Below are positions 548 to 31,151 of a DNA stretch of 45,026 nucleotides, piece by piece. The translations under genes were made by a program, and so were the position numbers. Source of the stretch: Chthoniobacter flavus (GTDB taxonomy: Bacteria > Verrucomicrobiota > Verrucomicrobiia > Chthoniobacterales > Terrimicrobiaceae); the NCBI GenBank assembly GCA_945883435.1, contig CAMCXK010000021.1:1-45026 (forward strand). Direction: 5' to 3'. The notes below the pieces were generated by a model. It was not told the DNA's origin. It did not search any database and saw nothing but the letters and a program-made list of their open reading frames with translations. How positions within the stretch are numbered: the stretch's first letter is position 1; every line of letters begins with the position of its first letter.

Positions 548-556
548 CCCGGACCC

Positions 557-12293: not shown

Positions 12294-12371
12294 GAAAACC
12301 AGGGCACAACACGAGGGGGGGGTGCCTTTCAAAAAAGGCGCAAACGGCCGGCGCGTCCGCCGGACAGAAAA

Positions 12372-12710: not shown

Positions 12711-12742
12711 GACCCCCACCCAATCGCCGGAACGGCGTTTTG

Positions 12743-13810
12743 TCAACGGGCATCTTGGGATTGGGGCGCATCCAACGCGCACCGGAAGCCGGTGTGGCTT
12801 GTGCCGGTGTCCGGCGGCGTGCCGCGGCGTGCCGCCGGGCGGTAACTCTCGCAGTAGCCGGGATGGCAAAGAAACGATCCTCCCTTGGTGACACGCCGCT
12901 CCACACCCGGAACCGTGGGCGGGGAGGGATCTCCGGGCACGAAGGCTTCGCCTCTTGTCGAGGCCGGACCTTGTGGATCGCAACACACTTTTTCCGGGTC
13001 GGCACGGACTGCAAACGCATCCGCGCGGTAGATATCCGAGCACCAGTTCCAAACATTCCCTCCCATATCGCAAAGGCCATAGCCATTCGGAGGAAAAGAA
13101 CCGACCGGCGAGGTTCCGGCAAAACCGTCCAATGCGTCATTGCGCCATGGGAAGTCCCCCGTCCACCGGTTGAGGAGGAAGCGATTCCCGGGATTTTCCC
13201 CGTCGCCCCAGGGGTAGCGTTTTCCATCGAGTCCGCCGCGCGCCGCAAACTCCCATTCGGCTTCCGTGGGCAGGCGTTTCCCGGCCCACTTGGCATAGGC
13301 TTGCGCATCCTCCCAGGCGACGTGGACCACCGGATGGTTTTCGCGGCCCGCGACCGTGCTTCCGGGACCCTCGGGATGCTTCCAAGACGCTCCGGTCGTC
13401 CAGGCCCACCACTGCGACATGTCGCGCAGATCAACAGGACCATTTGTGGCGCGGAAAACCAGCGAGCCGGGTTGGAGAACCTCATCCGGCGGCTTGGGTG
13501 TTCCCGGAGGAGCCTGTTTTTTCAATTCCTCCCAATCGACCGGGCGTTCGGCCATGGTGCGGTAGCCGGTGGCCTCCACGAATTTTGAATAATCCGAATT
13601 CGTCACCGGGTGGATGTCGATGAAGAACGAGGCCACGCGCACGCGGTGGGCCGGTTTTTCGTTGGGAAACGCCCCGGCGGCCTCGCTGCCCATGGTGAAT
13701 TCCCCGCCCGGGATCGCAACCATGCCGGGCGGGTTTTCCAAGGTTCCCGCCCGCGCCATGGAAACAGCCATCCCCATCAAACATAGACAAGCAAGGCGCG
13801 ACACAGCCAC
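12743..13810 (-). CDS. Exported formylglycine-generating enzyme (SUMF1-type)
   Basis: FGE oxidises an active-site cysteine of type I sulfatases (CxPxR) to formylglycine, using oxygen and a Cu(I) bound by two cysteines. The 355-residue product from GTG 13810 has a hydrophobic leader ([21 protein letters not shown]), so export is likely. The fold motifs follow the human SUMF1 order: [94 protein letters not shown] and TSHTGFRCA. The catalytic cysteine pair is present (codons at 12866-12868 and 12851-12853), so this is a true FGE candidate rather than a generic FGE-fold domain. No sulfatase gene is in the window. It lies just upstream of the metal-efflux genes on the same strand. Confidence 0.9.
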
Positions 13811-13912
13811 AATGTCATCCGGTTTGGACACCTTGTCGACTCCGGGGATGCCATGAAAATCGAATTGCCACTCGCCCGCGCCGGTGTGCGCGGGTAGGCT
13901 TGGCCATTCACC
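13811..13912. promoter_or_regulatory. Divergent intergenic region between FGE and uvrA genes
   Basis: About 100 bases separate the two divergent starts, so promoters in both directions are expected here. It contains a GC-rich inverted repeat (CCCGCGCCGGTGTGCGCGGG at about 13878-13897) shortly before the uvrA start. I could not identify convincing -35/-10 pairs or a LexA-type operator. Confidence 0.35.
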
Positions 13913-16804
13913 ATGGAATTTGCCGAACGATCCATGATCCGCATCCGGGGCGCCCGGCAGCACAACTTGCAGGGCCTTGATGTGGACATTCCCCGCCACA
14001 AGCTCGTGGTTGTGACCGGTCCCAGCGGCTCGGGAAAGTCCTCGTTGGCGTTCGATACCCTGTTTGCCGAGGGCCAGCGGCGATATGTCGAAAGCCTTTC
14101 GGTCTATGCGCGGCAATTTCTGGATCAATTGCAAAAACCGGAAGTCGACCACATCGAGGGCCTCTCGCCCGCGATCGCCATTGAGCAGCGCACCGCCGGC
14201 GCGAACCCGCGCTCCACGATTGCCACAACCACCGAGATCTACGACTACCTCCGTGTCCTTTACGCGTCGGTGGGTGTTCCGCACGACCCGGCCACCGGGG
14301 AGGTGGTCCGGCGCAAATCGCCTCAGGACATCGCGGATGCCCTGCTGGCCTGGCCGGAAGGCACGCGGTTTCTCCTGCTGGCCCCCCTTGTCGACAACCA
14401 AGCCGGGGAGTTTCGCGATGTCGTGGAGAAGGCACGACGGGAGGGTTTCGTGCGGCTGCGGGTCGACGGGGAGGTGATCGAACTCGCCGAAACAAAAAAC
14501 GTCCGCCTCGATAAAACCAAAAAACACCGGATCGAGGCGGTGGTCGACCGGTTGACCGTCCGTCCGGATTTGGGGCAGCGGCTCGCCGACTCGGTCGAAA
14601 CCGCCCTGCGCTGGGGCAACGGCAGGCTGATCGCGTCGCGCGCGGACGGACAAACGACCAAATGGATCGACGAGCCTTTTTCCACCGATTTCACAAACCC
14701 CGCCACGGGATTTTCCATCCCGCGGCTGACGCCCCGCCATTTTTCCTTCAACAGCCATTCGGGGGCCTGCTCGGCCTGTTCGGGGATCGGAACCGAGGCG
14801 TTTTTCGATCCCGATCTGGTGATCGACGCCGACAAAAATCTGGCTCAGGGGGCGGTTCGACCCTGGAAAAACGCCAATGCGCGCATGAAATCCTACTATG
14901 CCGCCTTGCTGGATTCGTTGATGGAGGACGCCGGGGTAGCCCGGAACACCTGCTGGAGGGACTTGCCCGCCGCCTTCCGGAATTTGCTCCTGAATGGTTC
15001 GCAGGGACGCGCGCTGAAAATCTCAACCGGGCCCGGCAAGGTTGTTTCCCGTCCTTTCGAGGGACTCCTGGCCCAACTCGAGGGGCTTTACGAATCAACC
15101 AAAAGCGAATTCACCAAAAAGCGGCTCCGGCTTTACCAAGGCCGCCGCCTCTGCCAAGCCTGCCGCGGCGCCCGCCTCCGTCCGGAGATTCTTGCCGTCA
15201 CAGTCTCGACCCGGGCGGGCTCCCCGTTCGGTATTGATGCATTGTGCGGCCTCACGATTGAAGCGGCGCTGGGCGTGGTGAACGATCTGGATTTGACAGA
15301 AACCGGCGAAGGCATCGTGCGGGATGTCCTGCGGGAGGTCCGGCAGCGCCTTCATTTTCTGACCGAGGTCGGATTGGGGTATCTGCAACTGAACCGGGAA
15401 AGCGGCACGCTTTCGGGCGGCGAGGCGCAGCGCATCCGTCTGGCCACTCAGATTGGATCGGGCCTGTCGGGTGTGCTCTACGTCCTCGATGAGCCAAGCA
15501 TCGGCCTTCACCAGCGGGACAACGACCGCCTCATTGCCACGCTGCGCCACCTGCGCGATCTTGGAAATTCCGTCGTGGTGGTGGAGCACGACGAGGACAC
15601 GATCCGCGCGGCGGATCATATCCTGGACATCGGCCCGGGTGCGGGGCCGCGGGGGGGGCGGTTGGTCGCCCAAGGCCCGGTTGAGGCGATTCAAAACACC
15701 CCGGAATCGCTGACCGGACTCTATCTCAAAGGAGAAATCCGCATTCCCGTTCCGCGCCAGAGAACCGCGCCGCGCCGGACGGATCTGGAGCCTGGGCAGA
15801 TCGGCGACGGCTGGCTCCGGGTCCTCGGTGCGAGCGAAAACAACCTGCGCGGCATCGACGCGGCGTTTCCGGTGGGCTGTCTGACCTGTGTCACCGGGGT
15901 TTCGGGAAGTGGAAAATCGACACTGGTGAACGACATCCTGCGCGTTGCGATGGAGCGCGATTTGCACCGGGCCAAGGCCCGCCCGGGGGCGCACCGCGCG
16001 ATTGCGGGAGGCGAGCAATTCGACAAGGTCGTGGTGATCGACCAAAGCCCGGTGGGACGCACTCCACGATCGAATCCGGCCACCTACACGGGGGCGCTGG
16101 GGCCGGTGCGCGATTTGTTCAGCGACCTTCCGGCCGCCCGCGTCAGGGGCTACGATGCCGGCCGGTTTTCCTTCAACAACAAGGGAGGCCGCTGCGAACA
16201 CTGCCAGGGAGACGGATTTATCCGGATCGAGATGCATTTCCTCGCCGATGTGTATGTCGAGTGCGAGGTGTGCCGGGGGCGCCGCTACAACCGGGAAACC
16301 CTTGAAATCACCTACAAGGGCAAAAACATCGCCGATGTGCTCGAGATGACGGTCGACGAGGCGGCCCGGTTTTTCCGCCACGTTCCCGCCCTTTGCAACA
16401 AGCTCGAAACAATGCTCGACGTGGGGCTTGGCTACCTGCGGCTGGGCCAGTCGGCCACCACGCTGTCCGGCGGCGAGGCCCAACGCCTCAAACTCTCGGC
16501 CGAGTTGGCGAAGCGCCCCACGGGCCGGACCCTGTATCTTCTCGACGAACCCACCACCGGGCTTCATTTCACCGACATCCACAAGCTGCTCGAGGTTCTT
16601 CTCAAGTTGCGCAATTCCCGCAACACACTCATTGTGATCGAGCACAATCTGGAGGTGGTGAAATGCGCCGACTGGATTGTGGATATGGGGCCCGGCGGGG
16701 GCGCGGAGGGGGGATCGATCGTTGCGGAAGGGACTCCGGAATCGATTGTTGCCAACTCTGCCAGCGAAACCGGCCGCTATTTGGCCCGCTATTTGAAACC
16801 ATGA
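13913..16804 (+). CDS. uvrA: Excinuclease ABC subunit A
   Basis: UvrA is the damage-sensing ATPase of nucleotide excision repair. The 963 residues contain two ABC modules: Walker [10 protein letters not shown] early and GVSGSGKST near residue 663, signature sequences [14 protein letters not shown] and [14 protein letters not shown], and Walker B segments [13 protein letters not shown] and [13 protein letters not shown]. Zinc-binding cysteine pairs are visible as [17 protein letters not shown], and the C-terminal module CEHCQGDGF with [10 protein letters not shown]. The UvrB-binding region near [13 protein letters not shown] is intact. Length and motifs match the family. The start could be ATG 13913 or ATG 13934 ([12 protein letters not shown]); the latter fits typical N-termini. 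Its stop overlaps the next start (ATGA). Confidence 0.98.
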
Positions 16805-19173
16805 CCCTACCCGTTTTCCTTCTGACCGCACTTTTGACCAACTCCGGATGGACCGGCGTGCGCCAGGCGCTGGACGACGGCCTTCCCACGCTCGCATTGG
16901 CCCGGATCGACTCGCTTCCACCCGCCGGGAACCCGGCCGATTTGCTGACCCACGCCCGTGCCTTGCTCGCAGCCCACCGCCCGGCGGATGCCGTCCGGCT
17001 GCTGGGGGAATCCTGCGTTCCGGATGCCCCGGAGGTCCTCTTCTGGCTGGCACAAGCCCAAGCCGCCGAGGGCGACTGGGAGCCGGCCCTGAAAAACTAC
17101 CGGGCGTCCGCCTTGGCCTCCGGATCACCCGAGGCCGGCCTCGGCGCGGCCCGCATGCTGAGGAACCTGAATCGTTCCGGCGAGTCCGGGGCCGAACTGG
17201 AGGCGCTGAAGCTGAGATTCCCGGCGGACGAGACGGTGCGGATCGATCTGGCCCGCTTGCGCATCGCGGAAAACCGCTTTCAGGACGCGCTCGACCTTTT
17301 GCAATCCATGGGTCATGAAACGATCCAACGGGAGGACATTCTGCTGCTGGCAGCCCAATGCGAAGAAGGTCTCGAGCGACAGGACGCGGTATTGAGCAGG
17401 CTTGCGGATTTCCGACCCGCCACCGCAGAGCAGGCGGTTCAAGCCACCTTGCTCAAGGCGCGGGCGCAGCGTGCCACCGGCGAAAGCCAGGCCGCGGAAA
17501 ACACGCTGGAGGATTTTCTGGCCAACAATCCCCATCTGGAAAACCTGTCTCCGCTTTTCGCATTGCTGGAGGAGATTCAAAACGCGTCAGCCAGTCCTAC
17601 GACCAGCGAACTCCGCCGTTGGGCGATGGACACCCGTTCCGGCCCCCGGCGCCGATTGGCGATGTGGCACCTGGCCCGGGCGGAAGCGGTCCGTGGATCG
17701 CCCGCCGCAGCTCTTCCTTTTCTGGAGGCCCTGGTGGCCGAACCGGGCAGTGATCCCTCGCCCGACGAGGCAGCCAGGGAGTTGGCTGCATTGAGGATTC
17801 GCACCGGCACCCCCGCCCAGGCGGCGGCCCTTCTGCCCGAGGCATCTTTCGAAGGCCGGTTTTTGCGCGGTTTGGCGGCGGCGAAAGCCGGGGACTTCGG
17901 CAGCGCCCGTTCCCATTTTCTGGGAGCATCCGAGGATCCGGCCCTTGCGGAGGCGGCCCTTTTCAATGCCGCGCTCAGCGAACTTCTTTCCGGCAATCCG
18001 GGCGATTCCGCGATGAAACTCGCCGCCCGGTTTCCAGACAGCCCGCTCGCCGGAAACTTTCGTTTGCAAGAAGCGTGTTTTCTGGCGCGCAACGGCGACC
18101 CGGCCGCCCGGCGGAAGTTTGAGGAACTTTCGGCATCCACCAACCCCGTGCTTGCGGCGCAAGCCGCCCTGGGGCTTGCGGAGTGGCAGTATTGGCAGCT
18201 TGATTTTCCATCGGCGCGGGCCGGTTTGCAGCGTGTGTCAACGGCCTCCGCCCCGTCCCATCCCGCGGTGCTGGAGGTTTTTTTGGCCGATGACGGCACC
18301 CCTGGCTCGATGGACAGGGCCTTGGAAAAAGCCAAGGCCGCGCGCAGCCTCGCCCTGCCATCCGATTTGGAGCAGGCGCTTTTGATGAAAACCGGAGAGA
18401 TCCTCTACCGCCGGGGGGATTTCGTGGAGGCCAGGGAGACACTCGTCGATTTGGCGCGGAAACATCCCGATGCGGCTTGCGAGAAGCCCGCCCTGTATCT
18501 GGCGGCTCAGTCCGCCGCCCGCATTCCCTCGACACAATCGGCGGAGGAGGCGCTTCTCCTTCTGGAGGAGGTCGCCTCCAAGCCGGGGCCATTGGCCGAG
18601 CGCGCCCGGATCGAGCAAGCCGCCTTGCTCAGCGCCCGCAACAATCCCGTCGAAGCCAATCTTCTTCTCGAGAAGGTGCTCGCCTCGACTTCCGACCCGG
18701 CCATCCGTGCCGAGGCGCTTATGGAAAAAGGCAAGAATTTCCACCTGCTGGGGGAAGCCGATCCCGCCAATTACCAAGTCGCAGTTGCCACGTGGAACGC
18801 GATTGCGGCCGACCCGGCCGCCGATCCCGCCATGCGGGCGCAGGCCTTCTCTCGCATCGGCGTGGCGCAGGAGAAGGCAGGCAATCCCGCTGCCGCCGTC
18901 GAGGCCTTTTTCGAGGTTCTGCGCCCGCGATCGTCCGGAGTGGCAGCCGACCCGTTCTGGTTCTACAAGTCGGGGTTTGCAGCCGGGCGCCTGCTGGAGG
19001 CCCAGAGCAAGTGGGATGAGGCGATCCGGACCTACGAAATCCTAGCCGGGGCGGATGGTCCCCGCGCCAGCGAAGCCCGCAGCCGCATTGAAAAAATCCG
19101 GCTGGAGAAATTCCTCTGGGAAGCCACGCCGCCCGCACCCGGGCGCAGCAAACCAGGTGGCTCCCGAAACTAA
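16801..19173 (+). CDS. Secreted tetratricopeptide-repeat protein
   Basis: A 790-residue protein that begins [17 protein letters not shown], a short signal peptide, and is otherwise built of helical TPR-like repeats (WLAQAQAAEGDWEPALKNYR; LARLRIAENRFQDALDLLQ; KTGEILYRRGDFVEARETL; AFSRIGVAQEKAGNPAAAVE). No enzymatic domain is visible. The start overlaps the uvrA stop, and the frame also runs back into uvrA, which is a shadow. Periplasmic TPR proteins often act as scaffolds for envelope assembly or export. The next gene, 51 bases downstream on the same strand, encodes the giant repeat protein, so a role in its secretion or surface display is possible but unproven. Confidence 0.88.
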   Translation: MTLPVFLLTALLTNSGWTGVRQALDDGLPTLALARIDSLPPAGNPADLLTHARALLAAHRPADAVRLLGESCVPDAPEVLFWLAQAQAAEGDWEPALKNYRASALASGSPEAGLGAARMLRNLNRSGESGAELEALKLRFPADETVRIDLARLRIAENRFQDALDLLQSMGHETIQREDILLLAAQCEEGLERQDAVLSRLADFRPATAEQAVQATLLKARAQRATGESQAAENTLEDFLANNPHLENLSPLFALLEEIQNASASPTTSELRRWAMDTRSGPRRRLAMWHLARAEAVRGSPAAALPFLEALVAEPGSDPSPDEAARELAALRIRTGTPAQAAALLPEASFEGRFLRGLAAAKAGDFGSARSHFLGASEDPALAEAALFNAALSELLSGNPGDSAMKLAARFPDSPLAGNFRLQEACFLARNGDPAARRKFEELSASTNPVLAAQAALGLAEWQYWQLDFPSARAGLQRVSTASAPSHPAVLEVFLADDGTPGSMDRALEKAKAARSLALPSDLEQALLMKTGEILYRRGDFVEARETLVDLARKHPDAACEKPALYLAAQSAARIPSTQSAEEALLLLEEVASKPGPLAERARIEQAALLSARNNPVEANLLLEKVLASTSDPAIRAEALMEKGKNFHLLGEADPANYQVAVATWNAIAADPAADPAMRAQAFSRIGVAQEKAGNPAAAVEAFFEVLRPRSSGVAADPFWFYKSGFAAGRLLEAQSKWDEAIRTYEILAGADGPRASEARSRIEKIRLEKFLWEATPPAPGRSKPGGSRN

Positions 19174-19224: not shown

Positions 19225-22200
19225 ATGCCAATGACCATGCTCCCCGCTTCACCGGCCCCTCTGATTTTGGAATCCTTGGAACTCCGTATCGCGCCCGCAC
19301 TTTTTCTGATGACCGGCACCGGGGATATCAAGGACTCAAAAGGATCGATTCTTCCGAGCGTGGCCAAATACACCGACGTGTCCGGTTCCGACGAGGCGTT
19401 CCTCTTCAAGGCCTCCGACCAGCTTTTTTTCGACAGCAATGGAAACGGATCGATCGATCCCAAAACCGACAAGCTTCTCTTCGCGATCAAATCCGGCGGC
19501 TCCGCAGTGTTTTTCAACTCCTCGCCGGGCGCGTCCGAACCGCTACAAGTTTCCGGAATCGCAACCACCACCGGCTGGTCGGGTGTCTTCCACACCTCGA
19601 TTCACGGCGATGTGGCCACCATGCTCGACGCCAAGACATTCGACTTCGGAACGAAATCCAAAACCGGCAAGCGACCGGTGTTCGAGAATGCCACGGTGAC
19701 CGGTTTGACCATGGGCGGTCCCACCGGGCAGGCGTTTGTCGCAGGTGCCATTTTTGCAGGCGGGAATGTATCCAAAATTTCAATCACCGGAGCGGACTCG
19801 AACGGGATTTCGATGGCTGGCATTTACGCTGGAACCGGGGTCAATGCGGTTGCACAAGTTGATTTCGGCGGGGCTTCGCCGGTGGTGTTGACCACCTATT
19901 TCGCAATAGATGCCAAGCCGGGCCCGGGCGTTGCGGGGGTCAAAACCAATGGCGGTATTGTTTCGAAGATCATTGCCGGGGCGGGCGGAGATGCGATCGG
20001 CGCGGGCGCCGCCGCCAAGGGTGGAAGTGTTGTGGATGTCTTGATCACGGATTCCGCCGGAGGGCTTGTCTCGATCGAGGCCGGGGCCGGAGGGGCGGGA
20101 TCCTCCAATGATGCAGGCACAAAAGGGGGGGTAGGCGGCAACGGGGGCGCCATTTCCAAAGTGGTCTGGAGGGATGCCGGCATCCTGCAACTTGCGGCAG
20201 GGGCTGGTGGCGACGCGTCGCTGGGGGCGAAGGGCGGGACGGGCGGCAGCATTTCCTCCATCACGGCATCCCTCGGAGCGGGCGCCTCTTCCTTGGCGGC
20301 AGGCGCGGGAGGGGGCGGCGCCGATCCCGCAAGCTATGGAACCGCTCCCGGCGGCGGGGCGGGCGGGGGACTTTCGGGAATTTCGCTGGAGGCGGATTCC
20401 GCCAGTGCCAACGTGACTCTCGCTGCCGGGGCCGGAGGCAGTGGCGGCGGCAAAGCCCACGGAGGCTCGATTTCAAAATTGAAAATCCAGGGCGCGGAGT
20501 TTGGCAGCGTGGCGCTTGTTACAGGGGACGGGGCCGATGCCAGCACAACCTACGGGGCGGCCGGCTCGAATGGCGGCGCCCTCGTCGCGCCCGAGATCAC
20601 AGCCACCCGCATCGGGAGTCTTCTGATTTCGACCGGGAAAGGCGGGGCCGGGGCCGAGTTGGTTAAAAACGACGACGGACTCGTCACAGCGGGTGGAGCA
20701 GGCGGCAACGGGGGGATTTTTTCCAAGGTTCTCCTGACATCGACGCTCGGAGGCCTCGAAGTATCCACCGGATCCGGAGGCGACAACACTTACAATGGCA
20801 AGGGCGGCTCCGCCCAGACAATCGACGGGAAGGACTTTCTCCACGCGAAAAAATCCCCTCTTGCCCCGGGAACGATTCTGTTGTCCGAGGGCGCGAACAT
20901 CACGCTTGCTGCCGGCAATGCCGGCGGAGGAAACAAAACCGCCGGTCTGGCTGGGGGAATTCAAGGCCTTGTCTTTTCCGCCTCCGGCCAAGCGCTGGGC
21001 GATGTGTCTTTGACAGCCGGCTCGGGAGGCGCTGCGGTCGCCCTCACCACCACGAAATCCGATGGAGCAACCGCCAACGGCGGCGGAGGCGGATCGATCC
21101 AGCGCATCAATATCCAGTCCGGAACGGTGGCATCCCTTTCCCTCACCACTCAGGAGGGCGGGGCGGGAGCCAGCTTCAAAACATTCGATCCGGAGGGAGC
21201 CGAAATCCCCCAGTCCGTTTCCTCCGGCGGGTCCGCCGGGAGTATTTCCAGTATCACAGGCACGGCTGTGATCGGTGACCTCGCGGTTCAAACCGGTGCG
21301 GGCGGCTCCGCAGGCAAGCTGGATGGGACGCAGCCCGCCAAGGCTCCCAAAATTGTTGCGGCAGGGGGAAGCGGAGGAAATATCACCGGTGTGCAGCTGA
21401 CGCTTTCGGGAGCGGCCGTTCTGGGAACGGGAAATGGCGGCGAAGCAGGTGATGTTCGGGGCGAAAAAGATCTTTGGGCCGACGGAGGTGCGGCAGGGAT
21501 GGTCTCCAACTCGACTTTTCGGGCTGCTGCAACAACCGCATCCTTTGAAGCGGTGACCGGAACAGGAGGCCTTGGCTACCGCACCGCACTGAACGGCGGC
21601 GCCCTTCAAAAAATCGACTTTGAGAGCTCGGCCGGCGGTTCATTTGAGTCAATCACTCTCACCACCGGGGCCGGAGCGAGCGGTTCCGAGCGCACCAAAG
21701 GCGGCAACGGAGGGGCTTTTCAAGAAATCCGCTTTCTTGCGGATGTTGGCGCACTGACCGTTACCGGAGGATCCGGAGGCGAGGCCCTGGATACGACCAC
21801 CTTCGCGGGAGGAAATGGAGCCGGATTCGATGCCTTGTCGTTTGTCTTCACTGGACAGCTTGGTGCGCTGAGCTTGACCGGCGGCGATGGAGGTATCGCG
21901 GGCCTGAATGGAACTGCCGGGGCGGGCGGGGCCTTGGCGGATTTGAACTTGAACGGGACCGGGAGTCCCGACGGAACCACAGTGACGCTTCTCAGCGGTT
22001 CGGCCGGAGCGGATGGAGGCCAAAGCGGGGTGGCCGGAGCAATCCAAAATGTCTCACTGGCCGGCGGAAATTTCGGGGTTGTCGAAATCACTTCCGGCAA
22101 TACAGGCGCGGGTCAAAATGGAATTGCACCGACGGGAATCAAAGTGGCTGAGGGGACCACGGTGGCGGAGCTTGTTCTTCGGGGTGGCCGGGGCGGGGAC

Positions 22201-25200
22201 GCCACCCCTGGTTCAAATCTAAGCGGCGGCAAGGGAGCCGCCCTTTCCGGATCAAGCTTCGACCTCAAGGGAACGATCCAATCGCTCGTCTTGGAAGCAG
22301 GGGCAGGCGGAGAGGGAGATGCAACCGGCGATGGTGGTGAAGGCGGAGGGATTTCCGGATTTTCGCTACCCTCACCCCTTTCCACCCTTTCGGTGACCGC
22401 TGGGTCCGGAGGCCAAGGGGGCCTTGCGGGGGCGGGCGGCATGGGCGGTGGACTTTCCGCGATCACGGCCAGCCTCACTGAATCCGCGACTCTCACAGCG
22501 GGGGACGGTGGCGATGCGTCGCTGGGGGCGATAGGCGGCGATGGCGGCGGTATTTCAGCGCTCAATCTCGCGGGAGGGGGCCCGGGTCTCACACCCGCGG
22601 TTTCCATCGTCTCGGGCAATGCCGGCGATGGTGCCACAGCGGGCCTGGCGGGCGCGGTGGAATCGATCACTTTGGCCACCGGAAATTTCGGATCGGTGGA
22701 TATTTCCACCGGTCTCTCTGGCGATGCCCGAGACGGGCGTTCGCTGGCAGGCATCCAAGTCGGCAGCCAGGCGGTGCTCGAGTCTCTCACACTCACCGCC
22801 GGAAATGGCGGTGACGCCAAGGCCGGATCAGGCGCCAGCGGCGGCGCGGGCGGTGCCATCGACGGAACCAATTTTCTTCTTCAAGGAACGATCGCCAATT
22901 TGACCCTCCAAGCCGGTTCCGGAGGCGCCGGGGATGGCGCAGGCACCGGAGGAAACGGCGGATCAGTTTCCGGGGTTTCCATGCAAGGTTCCACCTTGGA
23001 AATTGCGGTGTTGAGCGGCAAGGGAGGAGATTCAACGGACGGTATGGGGGGAGATGCCGGGAGCATTTCCACTTTGTCATTCAACGAAACGGTGCCGAGC
23101 CTCACACTCACCGGCGGAGATGGAGGGGGTGGATTGTCGGGTGGTCGCGGAGCATCCCTGTCCAATCCGTTTGGTCCACTTCCCAACAACGCGCGAAACT
23201 TGATTTTGCAAACGGGAAGCGGGGGATCAGCGACCTCTGGAACAGGCGGGGATGCGGGCTCTTTTGAGGATATCAACAACCTCACAATCCTCGAATCATT
23301 CACCCTGAGCCTCGGCAATGCCGGGGACGCGGCAACAGGGGATGCTGGAGAAAGCGGTGATATTCAAAACCTCACGCTCAATCTCGGGGATGGCGTTTCT
23401 TTGGCCCTCTCCACCGGCGATGGAGCCTCCGGTGGCCGATCTGTGGGCCATGGCGGATCGATCTCGGGGGTCGTTCTGGTCGCCACAGGGCCAACACAAA
23501 CTTTTGGCGAAATTCAGCTCTCCACGGGCAATGGAGGTTCCGCGCTGACAGGAGACATCGCCGGCGGCCACGGGGGATCCATTTCGGATATTACCGTTGG
23601 CACCGGAAAAACAGCGTCCCTCGTTCTTCTAACGGGATCGGGTGGGGCCGGATCAGGCTCGGGAAACGGGGGCGATGCCGGCCAGCTGTTTGATTTTTCG
23701 GGCATCACGGTTTCCGAATCGTTGACCATCGAGGTGGGAAGTGGCGGCGGAGCCGACGCGGGCATCGCGGGGAGGGTTGGTTCCATCGAAAACATCAGTC
23801 TTGCCTTTGCCGGGCCCGTGGATGTTTCGCTCGCCACCGGGGACGGGGCTGCGAGCGCGGGAGGCACATCGGATGGAGGAAGCCTGCGAGACATCGCCTT
23901 CAACCGCGCCTCCGGATACGCGGGTGCATTTGGTGCCATTTCACTCACCACCGGATCCGGCGGGGATGCGCTTCCCGGGTCCGGCAAAAGCGGGGGGCAC
24001 GCCGGAGTTATCCAAAATATCACCATCGATGGTGGAAAGACAGCCACCTTGAATTTGTCGACCGGCAGTGGCGGCTCGGGAGACGGCTCAGGAAATGGCG
24101 GCAACGGAGGAAATATTCTCGGATTCAATAATCTCACGATCAGCGAGTCGGCTTCATTTATGCTTGGTGGCGGGGGGGCCTCGGAGGGAGGGGATGCCGG
24201 ATCGACCTCCTCGATCGATGGACTCCTGCTCTATCTCGATGGCCCCGTGGATATCAATCTGGCCACTGGCGATGGAGCATCCGGAAAAACGCTCGCCGGC
24301 TCGGGGGGGCACATCACAAATGTCGAATTGAAAAAAGCTCCGGGCTATGCGGGGAGTTTCGGCGCGATAAATCTCGCGACAGGTTCCGGAGCGGATGCGG
24401 TGACGGGCTCGAACCAGAAAGGCGGGGATGCGGGCTCGATTTCCGCGGTTTCGATCGAGGGGCTCGAATCGGACGCCTTGATTCTCCGCACGGGCAATGG
24501 TGGTGCAGGAGACGGCTCGGCTGCGGGCGGAGATGGCGGAGATATCAATGGATTTGGAGGTCTGACATTGAATGGAGAACTCGAAATCATCCTCGGCAAT
24601 GGCGGAAATTCCCCCAATGGCACGCCTGGAACATCGGCGTCCATTGCCAATTTGGCCTTGAAACTGGCGGATGGAGTCGGCGTGAACCTCACAACCGGTC
24701 AAGGCGCGGATGGCAATGCTGGAGCCAATGCAGGATCGATACAGGACATCACTCTCGAAGCCGTGGGTCCCAACCGAACACTCGGGATTGTGCAACTCCA
24801 AACCGGAGATGGTGGCAACGCCACAGGGGTCAACCAGCGGGGAGGAACCGCAGGCTCTATTTCGAACATAACTATTGTCTCTGGAGGACAACCGGCCCTT
24901 GCGGAATCACTGTTGCTTTCCACCGGGTTGGGTGGAGATGCCACGGGCTCCGGTGAGGGGGGGGATGGTGGAACTGTCACGAACATTGCCAATTTTACGG
25001 CCAGTCAGCAGTTTTCAATATCTCTGGGCAGTGGCGGAAATTCCGTCACCGGGACGGGAGGAACGGCGAGCGACTTCGACGCACAGGCCCAAAACGTCTC
25101 TGTCACGCTCGGTGCGGGCGCGGGCTTTTCCGTGCAAACAGGGACAGCGGGTTCCGGAGCCTCCTTGGGCAACGGAGCCTCGATCAAAAATACCACGATT

Positions 25201-26103
25201 CAAGGTCCGGCGTTCGGGGCGACCGGAGCGATCGAACTCGTCGCCGGAAATGGCTCTGCACCGGGTGGAGCGGGCGGCTCGATACAAAACGTTCAGCTTA
25301 ACGGCCTCGCTATATCTTTCATTGCGGAGGCCGGCTCGGGAGCGGCTAGCCCATCGGTGGCAGGAAATGGTGGCGGTATTTCGACCATTCAAATTTCCGC
25401 AAACACCGTGACATTGAGCGCCGGCTCGGGAGGAAATTCACCCGCTGGATTCGCCGGGGCGGGAGGCGGCATCTCGGGCGTCACGCTTTCAGGCACGGCA
25501 CTCTTGACCGTGGCGTCGGGCGCGGGAGGAGACTCCATTTCCGGAAAGGGAGGGGCGGGCGGCTCCATTCAAAACAACCAACTCAGCGGTTTTGAGTTTT
25601 CCACCTTTCAAGCCGGCACGGGTGGTCTTCAAGGGGGAGCGGGAGGAGGAATTTCGGCCCTTCAAGCCATCGTGGGAGGGGGCTCCTCGCTGAAAATTTT
25701 TGCCGGTCAAGGTGGAGATGCCACCGAGACAGTCGCAGGAACGGGCGGGTCGATTCAAGATATTGAATTTTCGTCGTCTTCCATCTCCACGATTGCCGAA
25801 ATTTTGCTGGTTGCCGGCAACGGAGGAGAAGGAACCGCAGCCAACTCCAGCGGGGGCCAAGGGGGCACGGTTTCATCTTTTTCCATGCTGAATCAAGTTG
25901 TGGCCGCCATTCTGCAGATCAGCGGAGGCGATGGAGGGGCGGGAGGAGAAAATGCCCTGGGCGGGGATGGTGGCGATTTAACGTCGATTCTCGCCCGTGT
26001 CTTGACTGGAGGACAAACCATCAACGCGGGAGTTGGCGGACTGGGCGGTGTGGAGAATGGTATTGACGGGATCGAAACGGACGTTCAGCTCATTGAGCTC
26101 TGA
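19225..26103 (+). CDS. Giant glycine-rich repeat protein with LEPR-like N-terminus
   Basis: This 2292-residue protein is predicted to be secreted or surface-exposed. Residues 15-26 (LESLELRIAPAL) match the LEPR-XLL/LEPRIAPA N-terminal motif of giant Verrucomicrobia and Planctomycetes proteins. Residues about 30-110 form a non-repetitive domain containing FFDSNGNGSID, an EF-hand-like calcium loop. From about residue 180 on it consists of short units such as L-x-x-G-x-GG-(x)n-GG-x-GG-x-I-x-x-I, a pattern expected of a beta-solenoid. I saw no cysteine. The C-terminus (ETDVQLIEL) shows no autotransporter barrel, PEP-CTERM or LPXTG signal. ATGs at 19225, 19231 and 19237 are possible starts. Function is unknown; adhesin or matrix protein is an inference. 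Confidence 0.9.
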   Translation: MPMTMLPASPAPLILESLELRIAPALFLMTGTGDIKDSKGSILPSVAKYTDVSGSDEAFLFKASDQLFFDSNGNGSIDPKTDKLLFAIKSGGSAVFFNSSPGASEPLQVSGIATTTGWSGVFHTSIHGDVATMLDAKTFDFGTKSKTGKRPVFENATVTGLTMGGPTGQAFVAGAIFAGGNVSKISITGADSNGISMAGIYAGTGVNAVAQVDFGGASPVVLTTYFAIDAKPGPGVAGVKTNGGIVSKIIAGAGGDAIGAGAAAKGGSVVDVLITDSAGGLVSIEAGAGGAGSSNDAGTKGGVGGNGGAISKVVWRDAGILQLAAGAGGDASLGAKGGTGGSISSITASLGAGASSLAAGAGGGGADPASYGTAPGGGAGGGLSGISLEADSASANVTLAAGAGGSGGGKAHGGSISKLKIQGAEFGSVALVTGDGADASTTYGAAGSNGGALVAPEITATRIGSLLISTGKGGAGAELVKNDDGLVTAGGAGGNGGIFSKVLLTSTLGGLEVSTGSGGDNTYNGKGGSAQTIDGKDFLHAKKSPLAPGTILLSEGANITLAAGNAGGGNKTAGLAGGIQGLVFSASGQALGDVSLTAGSGGAAVALTTTKSDGATANGGGGGSIQRINIQSGTVASLSLTTQEGGAGASFKTFDPEGAEIPQSVSSGGSAGSISSITGTAVIGDLAVQTGAGGSAGKLDGTQPAKAPKIVAAGGSGGNITGVQLTLSGAAVLGTGNGGEAGDVRGEKDLWADGGAAGMVSNSTFRAAATTASFEAVTGTGGLGYRTALNGGALQKIDFESSAGGSFESITLTTGAGASGSERTKGGNGGAFQEIRFLADVGALTVTGGSGGEALDTTTFAGGNGAGFDALSFVFTGQLGALSLTGGDGGIAGLNGTAGAGGALADLNLNGTGSPDGTTVTLLSGSAGADGGQSGVAGAIQNVSLAGGNFGVVEITSGNTGAGQNGIAPTGIKVAEGTTVAELVLRGGRGGDATPGSNLSGGKGAALSGSSFDLKGTIQSLVLEAGAGGEGDATGDGGEGGGISGFSLPSPLSTLSVTAGSGGQGGLAGAGGMGGGLSAITASLTESATLTAGDGGDASLGAIGGDGGGISALNLAGGGPGLTPAVSIVSGNAGDGATAGLAGAVESITLATGNFGSVDISTGLSGDARDGRSLAGIQVGSQAVLESLTLTAGNGGDAKAGSGASGGAGGAIDGTNFLLQGTIANLTLQAGSGGAGDGAGTGGNGGSVSGVSMQGSTLEIAVLSGKGGDSTDGMGGDAGSISTLSFNETVPSLTLTGGDGGGGLSGGRGASLSNPFGPLPNNARNLILQTGSGGSATSGTGGDAGSFEDINNLTILESFTLSLGNAGDAATGDAGESGDIQNLTLNLGDGVSLALSTGDGASGGRSVGHGGSISGVVLVATGPTQTFGEIQLSTGNGGSALTGDIAGGHGGSISDITVGTGKTASLVLLTGSGGAGSGSGNGGDAGQLFDFSGITVSESLTIEVGSGGGADAGIAGRVGSIENISLAFAGPVDVSLATGDGAASAGGTSDGGSLRDIAFNRASGYAGAFGAISLTTGSGGDALPGSGKSGGHAGVIQNITIDGGKTATLNLSTGSGGSGDGSGNGGNGGNILGFNNLTISESASFMLGGGGASEGGDAGSTSSIDGLLLYLDGPVDINLATGDGASGKTLAGSGGHITNVELKKAPGYAGSFGAINLATGSGADAVTGSNQKGGDAGSISAVSIEGLESDALILRTGNGGAGDGSAAGGDGGDINGFGGLTLNGELEIILGNGGNSPNGTPGTSASIANLALKLADGVGVNLTTGQGADGNAGANAGSIQDITLEAVGPNRTLGIVQLQTGDGGNATGVNQRGGTAGSISNITIVSGGQPALAESLLLSTGLGGDATGSGEGGDGGTVTNIANFTASQQFSISLGSGGNSVTGTGGTASDFDAQAQNVSVTLGAGAGFSVQTGTAGSGASLGNGASIKNTTIQGPAFGATGAIELVAGNGSAPGGAGGSIQNVQLNGLAISFIAEAGSGAASPSVAGNGGGISTIQISANTVTLSAGSGGNSPAGFAGAGGGISGVTLSGTALLTVASGAGGDSISGKGGAGGSIQNNQLSGFEFSTFQAGTGGLQGGAGGGISALQAIVGGGSSLKIFAGQGGDATETVAGTGGSIQDIEFSSSSISTIAEILLVAGNGGEGTAANSSGGQGGTVSSFSMLNQVVAAILQISGGDGGAGGENALGGDGGDLTSILARVLTGGQTINAGVGGLGGVENGIDGIETDVQLIEL
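21979..23090 (+). repeat. Long internal duplication (206-residue period) in the giant gene
   Basis: Two copies in register are offset by 618 bases (GGT codon at 21997 against GGC at 22615). Shared landmarks in order are TLLSGSAG/SIVSGNAG, GNFGVVEI/GNFGSVDI, TGIKV/AGIQV, GDATPGSNLSGGKGAA/GDAKAGSGASGGAGGA, DLKGTIQSL/LLQGTIANL and GGEGDATGDGGEGG/GGAGDGAGTGGNGG. The second copy fades after about 23090. Confidence 0.75.
23398..25140 (+). repeat. Four tandem super-repeats of 141-148 residues in the giant gene
   Basis: Landmark GDGA-type codons recur at 23416, 23839, 24268 and 24697, with the next homologous point at 25141, giving periods of 423, 429, 429 and 444 bases. Each unit contains in order L-x-TGDGA, an FG-x-I-x-L-TG strand, a short GGHGGSISDI-like turn, L-TGSGG-GSG, and a GI/NLT-S-S-L strand, meaning about four short units per super-repeat. 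Confidence 0.75.
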
Positions 26104-26138: not shown

Positions 26139-27236
26139 TCAAAGACCTGCCAAGGCGTGCCGGACAGCCTCGATGACCATGTCTTGGTCTGTTTTTTCAA
26201 GATAGGGATTGAGAGGGAGGCTCAAGACCTCCCGGGACGCGGCTTCGGCCTCGGGAAAATCCCCGGATTGATAGCCGAGTGGAGAAAACACCGGTTGCTC
26301 ATGCAGACACTTCGGATAGTAGATGCCTGTGGGAACACCCCGCTCCGAGAGGGCGGATGCCAAGGCGTCCCGTTGGGGAACACGAATCGTGTATTGGGCA
26401 TAGACATGGGTGTTGCCGGAGCGAATCGCGGGGGTTTGACAAATGTCCTGCAGGGCGGCGGTGTATCGGGCACCTAGTTCTCCGCGCAACTCCACCTCTT
26501 TGGAAAAACCAGGCCATTTCGCCAGAAGGATGGCCGCTTGCAAGGTATCAAACCGCCCGTTCATACCGACCAAATCATGGTAATGGCGGCGGATGCCTCC
26601 ATGCGTGCGGATGGCCCGCATGAGTTGGGCGAGATGATCGTCACTGGTGAACAACGCCCCGCCTTCTCCATAGCATCCCAGGGGCTTGGCCGGGTAGAAA
26701 CTGGTGCTGGCGATTGTTGTGACCCCGCAACTTCTGCGGCCGTTGCGCTGAGCGCCGAAGCTTTGAGCCGCATCTTCAATCACGGGCAAGCCGTGGCGCG
26801 CCGCAATTTGGTTGATGGCATCGTAATCGGGCATCTGTCCAAAAAGGCTCACGGGCAGAAGCGCCTTGGTCGCCGGAGTGATCGCCTCCTCGATCCGATC
26901 CACAGCGATATTGAAATCCAGCGGGTCAATATCGACAAACACCGGGCGGGCTCCCACTTGAAGAATCACCTCCGCCGTGCTGATCCAGGTGAAGGGAACG
27001 GTGATCACCTCATGCCCTGGCCCGATACCCAGCGCGCGCAACGCGATCTCCAGACTATCGGTGCCGCTGGCCACAGTGATCGCGTGTTTTGTTCCCGTAT
27101 AATCGGCCAAGTGGCTCTCGATCTCCGCCACCTCCGGTCCCATAATGAATTGACCATGCTCCAAGACCCGGTGGATACGATCCATGATGGCTGGCTTGAA
27201 GCGTTGGTATTGGGTTTTGAGGTCGATGAAATCCAT
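26139..27236 (-). CDS. DegT-family sugar aminotransferase, WbpE-like
   Basis: A PLP-dependent aminotransferase of the DegT/DnrJ/EryC1 family that transfers an amino group to a nucleotide-linked keto-sugar. The 365-residue product starts MDFIDLKTQYQRFKPAIM at ATG 27236. It contains VLEHGQFIMGPEVAEIE, ASGTDSLEIALRALG, VIEDAAQSFGA and the PLP lysine segment SFYPAKPLGCYGEGGA. This closely follows the WbpE pattern, including SFFPSKPLGCYGDGGA and YAQYTVR in that family. WbpE makes UDP-2-acetamido-3-amino-glucuronate for O-antigen. Exact substrate is inference, because the usual partner genes (WbpB and WbpD types) are not in the window. It is the last gene of a glycan cluster. Confidence 0.92.
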   Translation of the reverse strand: MDFIDLKTQYQRFKPAIMDRIHRVLEHGQFIMGPEVAEIESHLADYTGTKHAITVASGTDSLEIALRALGIGPGHEVITVPFTWISTAEVILQVGARPVFVDIDPLDFNIAVDRIEEAITPATKALLPVSLFGQMPDYDAINQIAARHGLPVIEDAAQSFGAQRNGRRSCGVTTIASTSFYPAKPLGCYGEGGALFTSDDHLAQLMRAIRTHGGIRRHYHDLVGMNGRFDTLQAAILLAKWPGFSKEVELRGELGARYTAALQDICQTPAIRSGNTHVYAQYTIRVPQRDALASALSERGVPTGIYYPKCLHEQPVFSPLGYQSGDFPEAEAASREVLSLPLNPYLEKTDQDMVIEAVRHALAGL

Positions 27237-27259
27237 GCAATGAGTCTCCAAATGGACGA

Positions 27260-28372
27260 TTACCGCCCGCGGGTTTTGAGCACTCCAGGCAACCACGTCC
27301 ACACTATCTGGGTGGAAACCGCGTAATTCCACACCGCGCCCACCATAGCCCCGGCGGCACCCGCGAACCACCATGGAATGCCTCCTTGATGCAAAAAATC
27401 GGCCGACTCGACGTTGACGATCGCCCCCAGTCCGCAGATCAGCATGTAAGCTACCAGACCGGGAACCAGCAACCCGCCTTTCAAGCGCTGCTGGCGGAAT
27501 GTCACCGAGTTGTTAACCAGAAAATTCGAGATCATGGCGGCCACCGTCGCCGCGATCTGGGATGGCACGAAGTCCAGTCCCCCCGCCCGATGGAGAATGG
27601 CCAGAACCGCAAGGTGCAAGAGCAATCCGGAAAGTCCCGCCAGCACATAAAGCACAAAGCCGATTGGAACAAAGCGTCCGAAAATTTTGTCCGCCAGCAA
27701 ATACAGATACTCAAAAGCGACCACGATATCGAGCTTGCTCTCGCCATGCTGGCGGGTGCGGAATTCATACGCGAACTCCTGCACGCGCAGCGGCCGGCCC
27801 GCGGAAAGAACGATATCCAGAAGGATTTTGAATCCTTTGCCGGTCATGTTGCGAACAGTCTCCTCGAAAATCTCGCGTCGAATGACAAAAAATCCACTCA
27901 TCGGATCGGTTAAAGGCGTTTTCCGCACCACCGATCCAAGGCACGTTGCGAAACGGCTGACAAAAACGCGCGATTTCGACCAATCGCCGGTGCCGCCGCC
28001 CTGGCCGGTGTAACGACTGCCGACAGCAAGTTCCAACTTTGGATCCTCCTCAAACGCCTTTAACATCGTTGGCAGGATCGTTTCGTCATGTTGCAAATCA
28101 CAGTCCATCACTGCAAACACATCCGCACAACTCGATGCCATTCCCTCCAGACAGGCAGAAGCCAATCCGCGTCGACCAATCCGCCGGATGAAGCGCACGC
28201 GGGGATTCGAACGGGCCAAACCCATCAACACCTCCAAAGACCCGTCTTTGGAGTCATCATCGACAAAGACAATCTCCCAATTGTCACCGGGGAGGAGCTT
28301 TTCAAGACGCTCGACAACAAGCGGGATATTGTCGCGCTCGTTGAAGGCGGGGATGATGATGGAAAAAAACAT
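27260..28372 (-). CDS. Glycosyltransferase family 2 fused to a GtrA-like membrane domain
   Basis: The 370-residue protein has an N-terminal dolichol-phosphate-mannose-synthase-like GT2 domain: FSIIIPAFNERDNIPLV, VDDDSKDGS, the DCDLQHDE metal motif, and LTDPMSGFFVIRREIF. From about residue 235 a GtrA-like four-helix membrane domain follows (FVLYVLAGLSGLLLHLAVLA; ISNFLVNNSVTFR). Proteins of this architecture load a sugar on undecaprenyl phosphate and help move it across the inner membrane, supplying lipid-linked donors for PMT/ArnT-type transferases. The next gene upstream encodes exactly such a transferase, which supports a two-step lipid-linked glycosylation route. It lies 23 bases upstream of the aminotransferase. 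Confidence 0.94.
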   Translation of the reverse strand: MFFSIIIPAFNERDNIPLVVERLEKLLPGDNWEIVFVDDDSKDGSLEVLMGLARSNPRVRFIRRIGRRGLASACLEGMASSCADVFAVMDCDLQHDETILPTMLKAFEEDPKLELAVGSRYTGQGGGTGDWSKSRVFVSRFATCLGSVVRKTPLTDPMSGFFVIRREIFEETVRNMTGKGFKILLDIVLSAGRPLRVQEFAYEFRTRQHGESKLDIVVAFEYLYLLADKIFGRFVPIGFVLYVLAGLSGLLLHLAVLAILHRAGGLDFVPSQIAATVAAMISNFLVNNSVTFRQQRLKGGLLVPGLVAYMLICGLGAIVNVESADFLHQGGIPWWFAGAAGAMVGAVWNYAVSTQIVWTWLPGVLKTRGR

Positions 28373-28427
28373 GGGAATCAGACCTGCCCGATATGTGCCA
28401 CTCCGGTAAATGGGAATGTTGGTAAGA

Positions 28428-30119
28428 TTAGTTCATCGACGATTTTTGCCATATGGTCATGCGATTTTTCAGAAATTCCGTCTTTTGAGGGTAGGCCCAC
28501 CAAGGAAGAATCGGCGAGGAGGCATCGTAAACCACTTGATATCCGGAATTCTTATCAAAGAGTTCCTGATAGTATTTTTCCGTAATCCCCTCGACGTCGA
28601 TCGAACACCAAAAAACAAATTCGGGTGACCGCACCACCCGCTCCTCTTTGGAAAACCAAGTCAGCGGAACTTGAGTTTCCCGCTCTTTCGCCGCTTGCCT
28701 CATGTCCCCGTCTTTCTCAAACATTTTTTCAAACAAAGCGGCCCGTTCGAGACCGGTTTTGATTTCGTGGATTTTCGCTTTTTTGGGTAAAGCTTCAATT
28801 TTAGGGACTGATTTGCTCCATTCGATCGTTTCACCGCCCGAAAAATGCTGTTTGACGAAGTCCGGCGTTCGATTCCTCGGGTCCAATCGGAAAAGCCCCC
28901 CAATTTGAACCGCACACAATATATTGTAGGAAATTACTAAAGAAAATAGAACCGAAGTAAAAAAACGACATTTCCCGGACCACTGAAAACCCGGTGCCGC
29001 CAGAATGAGCAGAAACGGAGCCGCCGGCAGGACAAACCGAGTCTCCATGCGGGGAAACGATCCGATTTTCCAGGCGTAAAGACCCAAAACGGCAAAAGCC
29101 ATGAGCCAAATTACCCTATCCACTTTCTTGAAAGCAAGATACCAGGTTCCAATAAAAACTCCAAGGCATAGAAGGACTGTGCCAGGCCATCCGAATATTT
29201 CGAGAAAGGAAGCGCCAAATTCTCCGTAGCCTGTTCCCGAGGTCACTCCATTGTAGATCGGCGTCACATTGTAGTTGTAGGAGAAATCGGCCCAAAATTG
29301 CGTCCGGTCAAAAATGCAGAAAGGATTGCCAATCACAAAACCAACCGGAACCATTATTCCGCAAATCCAAGCGGAAGGACGCTTTAAAGCATTTAAAAAT
29401 CGATTTCCCGCGTGCGAGGCCAGAAGATGGGCCACCGGAAGAGCCGCAGCCACAGCGAGGCCGTTATATTTGGTGGCTCCCGCCAATCCGGCAAAAAGGC
29501 CACCCAAGATGGAAGCCTGCATAGAGGGCTTGGAGACAATCTTTGTGGCAAAGTAAAAAGTCCCCAACATGAAAAAAACAACGGCGAGATCCGTTGTTAG
29601 AAAAATTTGGTAGGGAACCCACCCTGCGGATGTGGCCCAAAGCCAACTGGCCAAGCGTGCCGCGTGATCACCCGCCAACTGTCTGGCAACGACAAAAATA
29701 ATAATCGTGCATCCCGCAAAAAGGAGGAGGTTGAGCACTCGGGCAAGCCACAACCGGACTCGCAAAAAGATTTCATACCGTTCATGCGAAGGTTTCCAAA
29801 AAGCCATGGACGAAATCGTCATGGCGGGGATGCGGGCGACGAAATGATTCAGGTAGGTGTAGAATGGCGGTTTGACGTAGGAGGCCGGTTGAAAGGGCGC
29901 TCGATCTTTGGCAAACAGATTTTTGAACGCCATCTTGTCGAGGTTCAAGCAGTCGTAGTGCCCCCAATTAAGCCCTTGCAACCCCAGAAGGAAGCCCACC
30001 AGCAATGCGCCGATCAACCAGAAGTCCCGGATCCGGCCCAGTTGACGACCCAGCTTTTTAAAGCTGCTTTTAAAAGCGCGTGTGGCTCCTTGAAAGAATC
30101 TTGCGCGAATATCACTCAC
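28428..30119 (-). CDS. PMT/ArnT-type membrane glycosyltransferase
   Basis: A 563-residue multi-spanning protein with about ten hydrophobic helices and a long soluble C-terminal tail. The first periplasmic loop (LNWGHYDCLNLDKMAFKNLF, then KPPFYTYLNHFVARIP) has the acidic residue and K-P-P-F-Y pattern typical of GT39/GT83-like (PMT_2) transferases. Such enzymes move sugars from polyprenyl phosphate donors to lipids, glycans or proteins on the periplasmic side. The start is a GTG; the gene begins 15 bases after gmd ends. By eye it is more AT-rich than its neighbours, a possible sign of later acquisition, as is common in glycan loci. Acceptor and sugar are unknown. Confidence 0.85.
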   Translation of the reverse strand: MSDIRARFFQGATRAFKSSFKKLGRQLGRIRDFWLIGALLVGFLLGLQGLNWGHYDCLNLDKMAFKNLFAKDRAPFQPASYVKPPFYTYLNHFVARIPAMTISSMAFWKPSHERYEIFLRVRLWLARVLNLLLFAGCTIIIFVVARQLAGDHAARLASWLWATSAGWVPYQIFLTTDLAVVFFMLGTFYFATKIVSKPSMQASILGGLFAGLAGATKYNGLAVAAALPVAHLLASHAGNRFLNALKRPSAWICGIMVPVGFVIGNPFCIFDRTQFWADFSYNYNVTPIYNGVTSGTGYGEFGASFLEIFGWPGTVLLCLGVFIGTWYLAFKKVDRVIWLMAFAVLGLYAWKIGSFPRMETRFVLPAAPFLLILAAPGFQWSGKCRFFTSVLFSLVISYNILCAVQIGGLFRLDPRNRTPDFVKQHFSGGETIEWSKSVPKIEALPKKAKIHEIKTGLERAALFEKMFEKDGDMRQAAKERETQVPLTWFSKEERVVRSPEFVFWCSIDVEGITEKYYQELFDKNSGYQVVYDASSPILPWWAYPQKTEFLKNRMTIWQKSSMN

Positions 30120-30134
30120 TGCGGGAGGGATGGG

Positions 30135-31151
30135 TCAGCGATACGCCGGAGTCATCGGATCCGGAACCGGCAGTCCCTGGAGCGAGGCCATGTCGGCATC
30201 GACCATGATTTGGACCAACTCCGGGAAGCGAACCTTGGGCTCCCAGCCGAGTTGTTTTTTAGCCTTGGCCGGATCGCCGATGAGAAGATCGACCTCGGCG
30301 GGGCGCTCGTAGCGGGCGTCGTATTTGACGTGGTCCTTCCAATCGAGGTTCACACGGGCGAAGGCGTGTTCGACGAATTCCTGGACGGTGTGGGTCTCGT
30401 TGGTGGCGCAGACGTAGTCATCCGGTTCATCCTGCTGAAGCATGAGCCACATCGCTTCCACGTATTCGGGAGCATAGCCCCAGTCGCGCTTGGCATCGAG
30501 GTTGCCGAGGTAAAGGTGCTCCTGTTTGCCAAGCTTGATGGCCGCGACGGCCCGGGAGATTTTACGGGTGACGAATGTCTCGCCGCGCCGGGGGGACTCG
30601 TGGTTGAAGAGAATGCCGTTCGTGGCGTGCATGCCGTATCCTTCGCGGTAGTTGACCGTGATCCAGTAGGCATACATCTTGGCCGCGCCATAGGGACTGC
30701 GGGGCCAGAAGGGGGTTTTCTCGGTTTGAGGGACCTCTTGGACCTTGCCGAACATCTCGGAGCTGGAGGCTTGGTAAAAACGGGCCTTCACACCGGCTTC
30801 GCGCATCGCTTCAAGGATGCGTGTGGTGCCGAGTCCGGTTACGTCGCCGGTGTATTCGGGAATATCAAAGCTCACCCGCACATGGCTCTGGGCGCCGAGA
30901 TGGTAAACCTCGTCGGGCTTGAGATCGTAGATGAGCTTGACGAGATTCACAGAGTCCGCCAAGTCGCCGTAGTGCAGGAAAAGCCGCACCCCGTTGATGT
31001 GGGGGTCCTGGTAAAGATGGTCGATCCGGGAGGTGTTGAACGTGCTGGCGCGGCGGATGATCCCGTGCACCTCGTAGCCTTTGCGAACAAGCAAATCCGC
31101 AAGGTAGCTTCCGTCTTGTCCTGTGATGCCCGTGATGAGTGCTTTTTTCAT
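30135..31151 (-). CDS. gmd: GDP-mannose 4,6-dehydratase
   Basis: Gmd converts GDP-D-mannose to GDP-4-keto-6-deoxy-D-mannose, the precursor of GDP-fucose, GDP-rhamnose and related sugars. The 338 residues include the NADP-binding [28 protein letters not shown], the catalytic SSSEMFG and [11 protein letters not shown] (Tyr-x3-Lys), [16 protein letters not shown], and [19 protein letters not shown]. These are near-invariant in Gmd. No fcl (fucose synthase) or rmd is in the window, so the final sugar is not determined. It is first in the minus-strand glycan run and has a candidate promoter just upstream. Confidence 0.98.

Follow-up and report, generated by a model that had tools for sequence, protein, structure and literature searches.

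The window analysed in this study (the whole stretch of DNA under examination, 45,026 nucleotides from a soil-type bacterium of the Verrucomicrobiota) encodes a glycine-rich protein of 2292 residues, P0001, which is a new member of a previously undescribed, lineage-restricted set of giant proteins that carry an N-terminal tag. We regard it as somewhat probable that P0001 is exported and has a structural role at the cell surface or in the extracellular matrix, where a tagged beta-solenoid with polyglycine-II (PGII) hairpins would form a rigid, acidic blade.

Coding sequence and homologues

The preliminary description of this DNA had reported a 2292-residue ORF; its coordinates proved exact and its frame intact. 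The coding sequence and its final section are as follows:

19225..26103, plus strand: coding sequence of the giant Gly-rich protein P0001; single uninterrupted ORF, ATG start, 2292 aa
25912..26103, plus strand: C-terminal tail, residues 2230-2292, ending ...DGIETDVQLIEL; the homologue in genome G021 ends ...DGVETDVNITVG, with the G021 match at 2047-2289

The protein is 24% Gly, contains no Cys and has a pI of 4.2, with 171 Asp/Glu compared to 78 Lys/Arg. The annotated start may be four codons too early, since the homologues begin at Met5 (19237). Searches of P0001 against Pfam, NCBIfam, PDB sequences and phage genomes returned zero matches; the Pfam and NCBIfam scans thus contained no enzymatic domain, in agreement with the preliminary description, and the possibility raised there that the repeats might belong to a well-characterised family was searched, with the result that they fall outside any described family. 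The gene is single-copy in its own genome, whose assembly totals 2.84 Mb in 126 contigs. Its GC3 is 0.62, compared to 0.72-0.76 for most of the neighbours tested (uvrA, TPR, acrB, hisD, dnaN and gmd), a value that is compatible with recent gain or with relaxed codon use and is proof of neither.

P0001 is not a chance ORF, because G021, a genome from a different genus of the same family, contains a homologue that is 40-48% identical along much of the protein. That homologue is split over two contigs (55 exact bases of overlap, one 100-N gap) and is most simply read as one gene of >3,100 codons; being longer than P0001, it indicates that repeat number varies. No protein of the P0001 type was found in the other 15 genomes of the source genus, so P0001 is dispensable within the genus.

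Genomic neighbourhood

The neighbours of P0001 are a uvrA-like gene, a gene for a TPR protein and glycan genes. The TPR gene (16393-19173, plus strand) lies upstream on the same strand, separated by a 51-base gap; as listed, its ORF overlaps the uvrA-like gene by ~400 bases and the matches in relatives contain internal stops, which makes a true start further downstream probable. It is present in 14 of the 16 genomes of the genus. Convergent with P0001, a glycan block on the minus strand (26139-31151) encodes a DegT aminotransferase, a GT2-GtrA protein, a PMT-like protein and a GDP-mannose dehydratase. The PMT-like gene has a GC of only 0.49 and was possibly acquired, and the block is possibly linked to surface glycosylation. 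At 557-4975 (plus strand), hisD and genes for a folP-like protein, a CdaA-type diadenylate cyclase and a phosphoglucomutase/phosphomannomutase are consecutive and form an ordinary c-di-AMP type cluster plus hisD. Locus or operon context was considered as a clue to P0001 and rejected: the flanks are apart in the congeners examined and different genes lie downstream of their TPR gene, so the position of P0001 has no conserved context.

N-terminal tag and module

The conserved head of the protein comprises two nested features:

19225..19929, plus strand: conserved N-terminal module, residues 1 to ~235; profile homology; AF2 pLDDT mostly 46-82, residues 1-20 <35
19267..19305, plus strand: LEPR-like tag, residues 15-27, LESLELRIAPALF; seven positions invariant in 14 homologues; the basis of a genome-wide DNA pattern

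The motif placed at residues 15-26 by the preliminary description, which had likened it to LEPR-XLL, is present (ILESLELRIAPA, counted from residue 14/15). The P0001 head LESLELRIAPA can be aligned with those of 13 other giants, and the homology extends ~200 residues further. Positions E16, L18, E19, R21, A23, P24 and A25 are invariant in the 14-homologue alignment. The resulting consensus, E-x-L-E-x-R-[IV]-A-P-A, forms the invariant head of an N-terminal module of ~235 aa that consists of the tag and a beta-rich domain with D65..D70..N72..G91..F96..G111..A113..G128; P0001 carries the family-defining head, ExLExR[IV]APA at most ~35 residues from the start. The module profile (A6) matches P0001 with an E value of 2.4e-64, but P0001 is itself a row of that profile; a paralogue from the same genome that lies outside the profile rows is matched with an E value of 4.6e-33. 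No Sec-type hydrophobic core was seen ahead of the tag on inspection of the sequences of P0001 and its close homologues.

LEPR-XLL and Planc_extracel (PF07595) denote short motifs of the L-E-x-R type that occur close to the N-termini of presumably secreted proteins of very large size. P0001 shares such a motif close to the N-terminus of a giant, while its family differs in the consensus ExLExR[IV]APA and in the outcome of both family searches: PF07595, a model of 20 positions, gave two sub-threshold matches elsewhere in the genome and none at the tag (C21:19267), and an NCBIfam scan of P0001 and two paralogues assigned no family. What stands of the earlier likeness is a conserved tag with seven invariant positions in 14 homologues, and what does not is a match to PF07595 or NCBIfam; judged from its sequence, the tag is LEPR-like and not a demonstrated LEPR-XLL member.

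Distribution of the tag

The DNA pattern of the tag was scanned in 213 Chthoniobacterales genomes, with the reversed pattern as a control. There were 204 matches in 21 of the 213 genomes versus 2 for the reversed pattern, which indicates that the head is a lineage-specific N-terminal tag of giant proteins; the five richest genomes had 26, 22, 21, 19 and 17 matches. The module profile was positive in 20 of the 213 genomes. When 388 genomes sampled evenly from the phylum were scanned, only the source genome was positive for the profile, and the tag pattern gave 8 matches outside the source genome versus 3 when reversed, which is background. Many of the profile matches listed extend no further than the first ~25-70 positions of the model and lie in open frames that range from several hundred to 4391 aa, so the tag also heads giants with other bodies. 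Tag counts are near all-or-none, with 8-26 in some genomes of family f6 and 0 in close congeners (e.g., G064-G066), and this pattern suggests a dedicated export or sorting system.

Two further tagged giants are adjacent to each other on contig C5 of the source genome (locus L025, C5:1000-20500), at 13988-17434 (minus strand, 1149 aa) and 9368-13984 (minus strand, 1539 aa, FG-GAP repeats). Tagged giants of this type are also paired in L019, L020, G058:C217, G061:C13, G039:C9, G086:C77 and G088:C39, and the pair is distributed more widely than the P0001 type. A gene for Verru_Chthon cassette protein A (TIGR02600, 832 bits), which is common across the order, is located at 402-4343 (plus strand) of L025, a few genes from the pair, and the cassette, which is pseudopilin-like, was considered as a partner of the tag because of this nearness. 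It was rejected as the tag's required machine since tag and cassette fail to co-occur across the order: the tag-rich genomes G061 (21 tags), G070 (15) and G063 (15) had no cassette-A match, and many genomes with the cassette are untagged.

Repeat organisation

The remainder of the protein consists of short units grouped into larger repeats:

19930..26079, plus strand: repeat region, ~57 units of ~36 residues; autocorrelation, unit profile, AF2
21982..22599, plus strand: 205-aa super-repeat copy 1, residues 920-1125; autocorrelation at lag 205, 44% identical with copy 2
22600..23190, plus strand: 205-aa super-repeat copy 2, residues 1126-1322; autocorrelation, copy identity
23191..23619, plus strand: 143-aa super-repeat copy 1, residues 1323-1465; autocorrelation, copy identity
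23620..24048, plus strand: 143-aa super-repeat copy 2, residues 1466-1608; autocorrelation, identity, AF2 model me6065dedbc6c
24049..24477, plus strand: 143-aa super-repeat copy 3, residues 1609-1751; autocorrelation, identity, AF2 model me6065dedbc6c
24478..24909, plus strand: 143-aa super-repeat copy 4, residues 1752-1895; autocorrelation, copy identity
24910..25317, plus strand: 143-aa super-repeat copy 5, divergent and partial, residues 1896-2031; 35-43% identity to other copies

Each ~36-residue unit contains a strand A (LxLxTG), a Gly-rich out-and-back segment, GGxGGxI and a strand B (xxIxL); because anchor patterns were used to build the unit profile, it is biased at the anchor positions. 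BLOSUM autocorrelation over residues 241-2285 was elevated at lags of 143 (z 6.9), 205 (z 5.9) and 36 (z 5.6), with an observed value of -0.047 compared to -0.197 as the best of 200 shuffles. The nesting in at least two larger classes that had been proposed for this protein is borne out beyond shuffles by a 205-aa class (residues 920-1322, two copies, 44% identical) and a 143-aa class (residues 1323-2031), in which four copies share 44-47% identity and a fifth, 35-43%. The super-repeat alignment (A5) consists of non-overlapping super-repeats. Overall, the copies have diverged to 35-47% amino acid identity and 64-70% DNA identity, and TRF found no DNA-level tandem array within the gene.

PGII bundles require Gly at every third residue (PMC10235112, PMC10216338). 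The enrichment of Gly pairs at lag 3 is 1.42-fold in P0001 compared to 0.99 in local shuffles (z 6.9), although one inherited GxGGxGG motif could partly contribute to this spacing, while no Gly periodicity was detected at lag 9 (z = -0.2). Nearly all family members with at least 23% Gly have a lag-3 excess (z 4-8.5), and it is weak or absent in several FG-GAP-type members that are truncated. The lengths of the Gly-rich loops in P0001 cluster at 16 and 18; their non-Gly residues are 56% polar or charged, with Asp at 10% and Asn at 8%.

Predicted fold

Two pieces of P0001 were modelled with AF2. The first (residues 1-540, aligned with four homologues) had a pLDDT of 71 and a pTM of 0.79, with the repeats at 231-470 mostly at 70-96 and residues 1-20 disordered. 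The second (residues 1466-1751, 286 aa) used an alignment built from P0001's own repeats (two other super-repeat pairs) and reached a pLDDT of 91.2 and a pTM of 0.90; its five models agree (89.7-91.2), its eight units are modelled as eight strand pairs, and its Gly-rich loops have pLDDT blocks around 90. Both pieces are predicted to be beta-solenoids of stacked short-strand rungs, the second with high confidence, as the preliminary description had expected when it proposed a stacked beta-helix. Given perfect repeats, AF2 is known to predict beta-solenoids that are unrealistic despite high confidence; predictions for families of diverged repeats are consistent across methods and represent a safer case (PMC11795689); since the repeats of P0001 have diverged, this caveat is eased, not settled.

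Structural comparison with VIA-align placed parallel beta-helices at the top for both the residues 1-540 model (EtpA, Z 14.2; HMW1, Z 14.1) and the residues 1466-1751 model (SufB-SufC-SufD, Z 12.8), the latter also matching tailspikes and polysaccharide lyases (Z 9-10); over both models, beta-helix matches had Z scores of 9-14. Comparison of a P0001 model with a viral fold library gave poor matches only. A springtail antifreeze protein whose structure (7jjv) bundles nine polyproline-II (PPII) helices superposed on residues 248-444 of the first model (Z 13.8, rmsd 2.7 A, 118 of 126 residues), so that approximately nine helices correspond to four to five P0001 units, or two per unit. The same structure was the best Foldseek match of the second model (E 5e-3) and was absent from that model's best 50 VIA-align matches. 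The long Gly-rich loops described earlier are present and are probably more than floppy connections, given the 3-residue Gly period and the superposition on a PPII bundle in one model. Taken together, the superposition and the Gly period, rather than torsion angles, form the basis on which the loops are predicted to be PGII hairpins.

Potential explanations for P0001

Under the exported-blade interpretation, each ~36-aa unit would contribute a single beta-solenoid rung made of two short strands. The Gly-rich stretch of 14-20 residues that leads from strand A to the following strand B would extend outward and fold back as two PGII helices, which would pack against those of adjacent rungs. The outcome would be a rigid, negatively charged blade of about 25-30 nm (~57 rungs, or ~27 nm if one unit is one 4.8-A rung). 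Export would depend on a system that recognises the N-terminal tag, and outside the cell the protein may serve as a stalk, coat or matrix fibre, possibly as an adhesin; we infer both the route and the function, whether adhesion, matrix or sheath. Repeat number could be altered without breaking the fold, in which case length would evolve freely. A bolder form of this proposal, which we consider possible but rather doubtful, is that P0001 represents a new composite fold, with a PGII hairpin on every rung and a beta strip beside a PGII bundle for dozens of rungs, on giants that a Chthoniobacterales export or sorting system recognises via ExLExRIAPA; the near all-or-none tag count per genome (0, or up to 26) is what a dedicated machine serving substrates of its own would be expected to produce.

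There are several other potential explanations. P0001 may be an ordinary beta-solenoid protein, either an adhesin or a passenger like those of autotransporters, with flexible Gly-rich loops that adopt no fold themselves, an unlikely account to which we nevertheless give real weight, as flexibility is common in Gly-rich loops and the structural match lists are full of beta-helix proteins, including the adhesin PfbA and antigen 43. However, the loops of residues 1466-1751 are modelled confidently, loop lengths cluster, Gly spacing has a 3-residue period, and a PPII bundle can be superposed on one of the two models. The resemblance to antifreeze protein 7jjv also raises the idea of an ice-binding protein or ice adhesin, like the springtail PPII-bundle proteins. 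The springtail protein has small hydrophobic residues on one face (PMC10235112), in contrast to the predominantly polar or charged loops of P0001, and the common feature is only the Gly-triplet fold; ice binding is very improbable.

Two further possibilities concern the secretion route. A two-partner-secretion (TPS) exoprotein of the TpsA/FHA-like type, with an N-terminal TPS beta-helix and an outer-membrane TpsB pore, would fit with the two best structural matches of the residues 1-540 model, both of which are TPS domains; yet these matches (11-12% identity, 4-4.5 A) are those of a generic beta-helix, Pfam detected no TPS or haemagglutination-activity domain, no long Sec signal peptide was seen and no TpsB-like gene was among the neighbours scanned, making this route improbable. 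The GGxGG and GDGG motifs of P0001 are superficially like RTX nonapeptides, and its giant size and acidic pI would also suit a calcium-binding RTX protein with type I export, but there is no RTX match in Pfam and the 9-residue period of GGxGxDxUx nonapeptides is missing; this candidate is largely refuted and retains hardly any likelihood.

Significance and comparison with known systems

Giants with LEPR-like heads have been widely noticed and left unexplained, and a lineage-specific, near all-or-none tag turns their export into a question that can be tested by phylogenetic profiling. If the beta/PGII composite is true, Chthoniobacterales would be a second bacterial lineage with a PGII architecture, a subject so far confined largely to a phage adhesin and the PE_PGRS proteins of mycobacteria, and the ~36-residue unit would be a compact one for structural work and materials design.

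With the parallel beta-helix exoproteins (the TPS domains of HMW1 and EtpA, PfbA and antigen 43), P0001 shares short parallel strands, predicted to be stacked, and a giant repeat architecture that is putatively extracellular. It differs from them in sequence (identity mostly 7-14% among the VIA-align matches listed), in its two-stranded units, each with a 14-20-residue Gly-rich excursion, and in having no autotransporter or TPS signature in Pfam. The 3-residue Gly periodicity and the 7jjv superposition are shared with the PPII-bundle antifreeze proteins of springtails (Granisotoma/Hypogastrura); those proteins, however, are tiny (about 80-130 aa) and have no beta-solenoid, while the loop surface of P0001 is polar and acidic. 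The PE_PGRS proteins of mycobacteria likewise form a multi-copy family, in which the N-terminal domain is conserved and the Gly-rich one hypervariable, and they share with P0001 Gly triplets, acidity, modular length and predicted PGII helices (PMC9436101, PMC10216338, PMC13243192). In contrast to these proteins, P0001 has no PE domain (no Pfam match), and its predicted PGII hairpin alternates with a solenoid strand pair where PGRS has a hydrophobic turn (the 'sail foot'); the two belong to different phyla, with no evidence of common descent. By analogy, the putative P0001 blade is comparable to the PGII-sandwich 'sails' of PE_PGRS proteins in design, not in descent.
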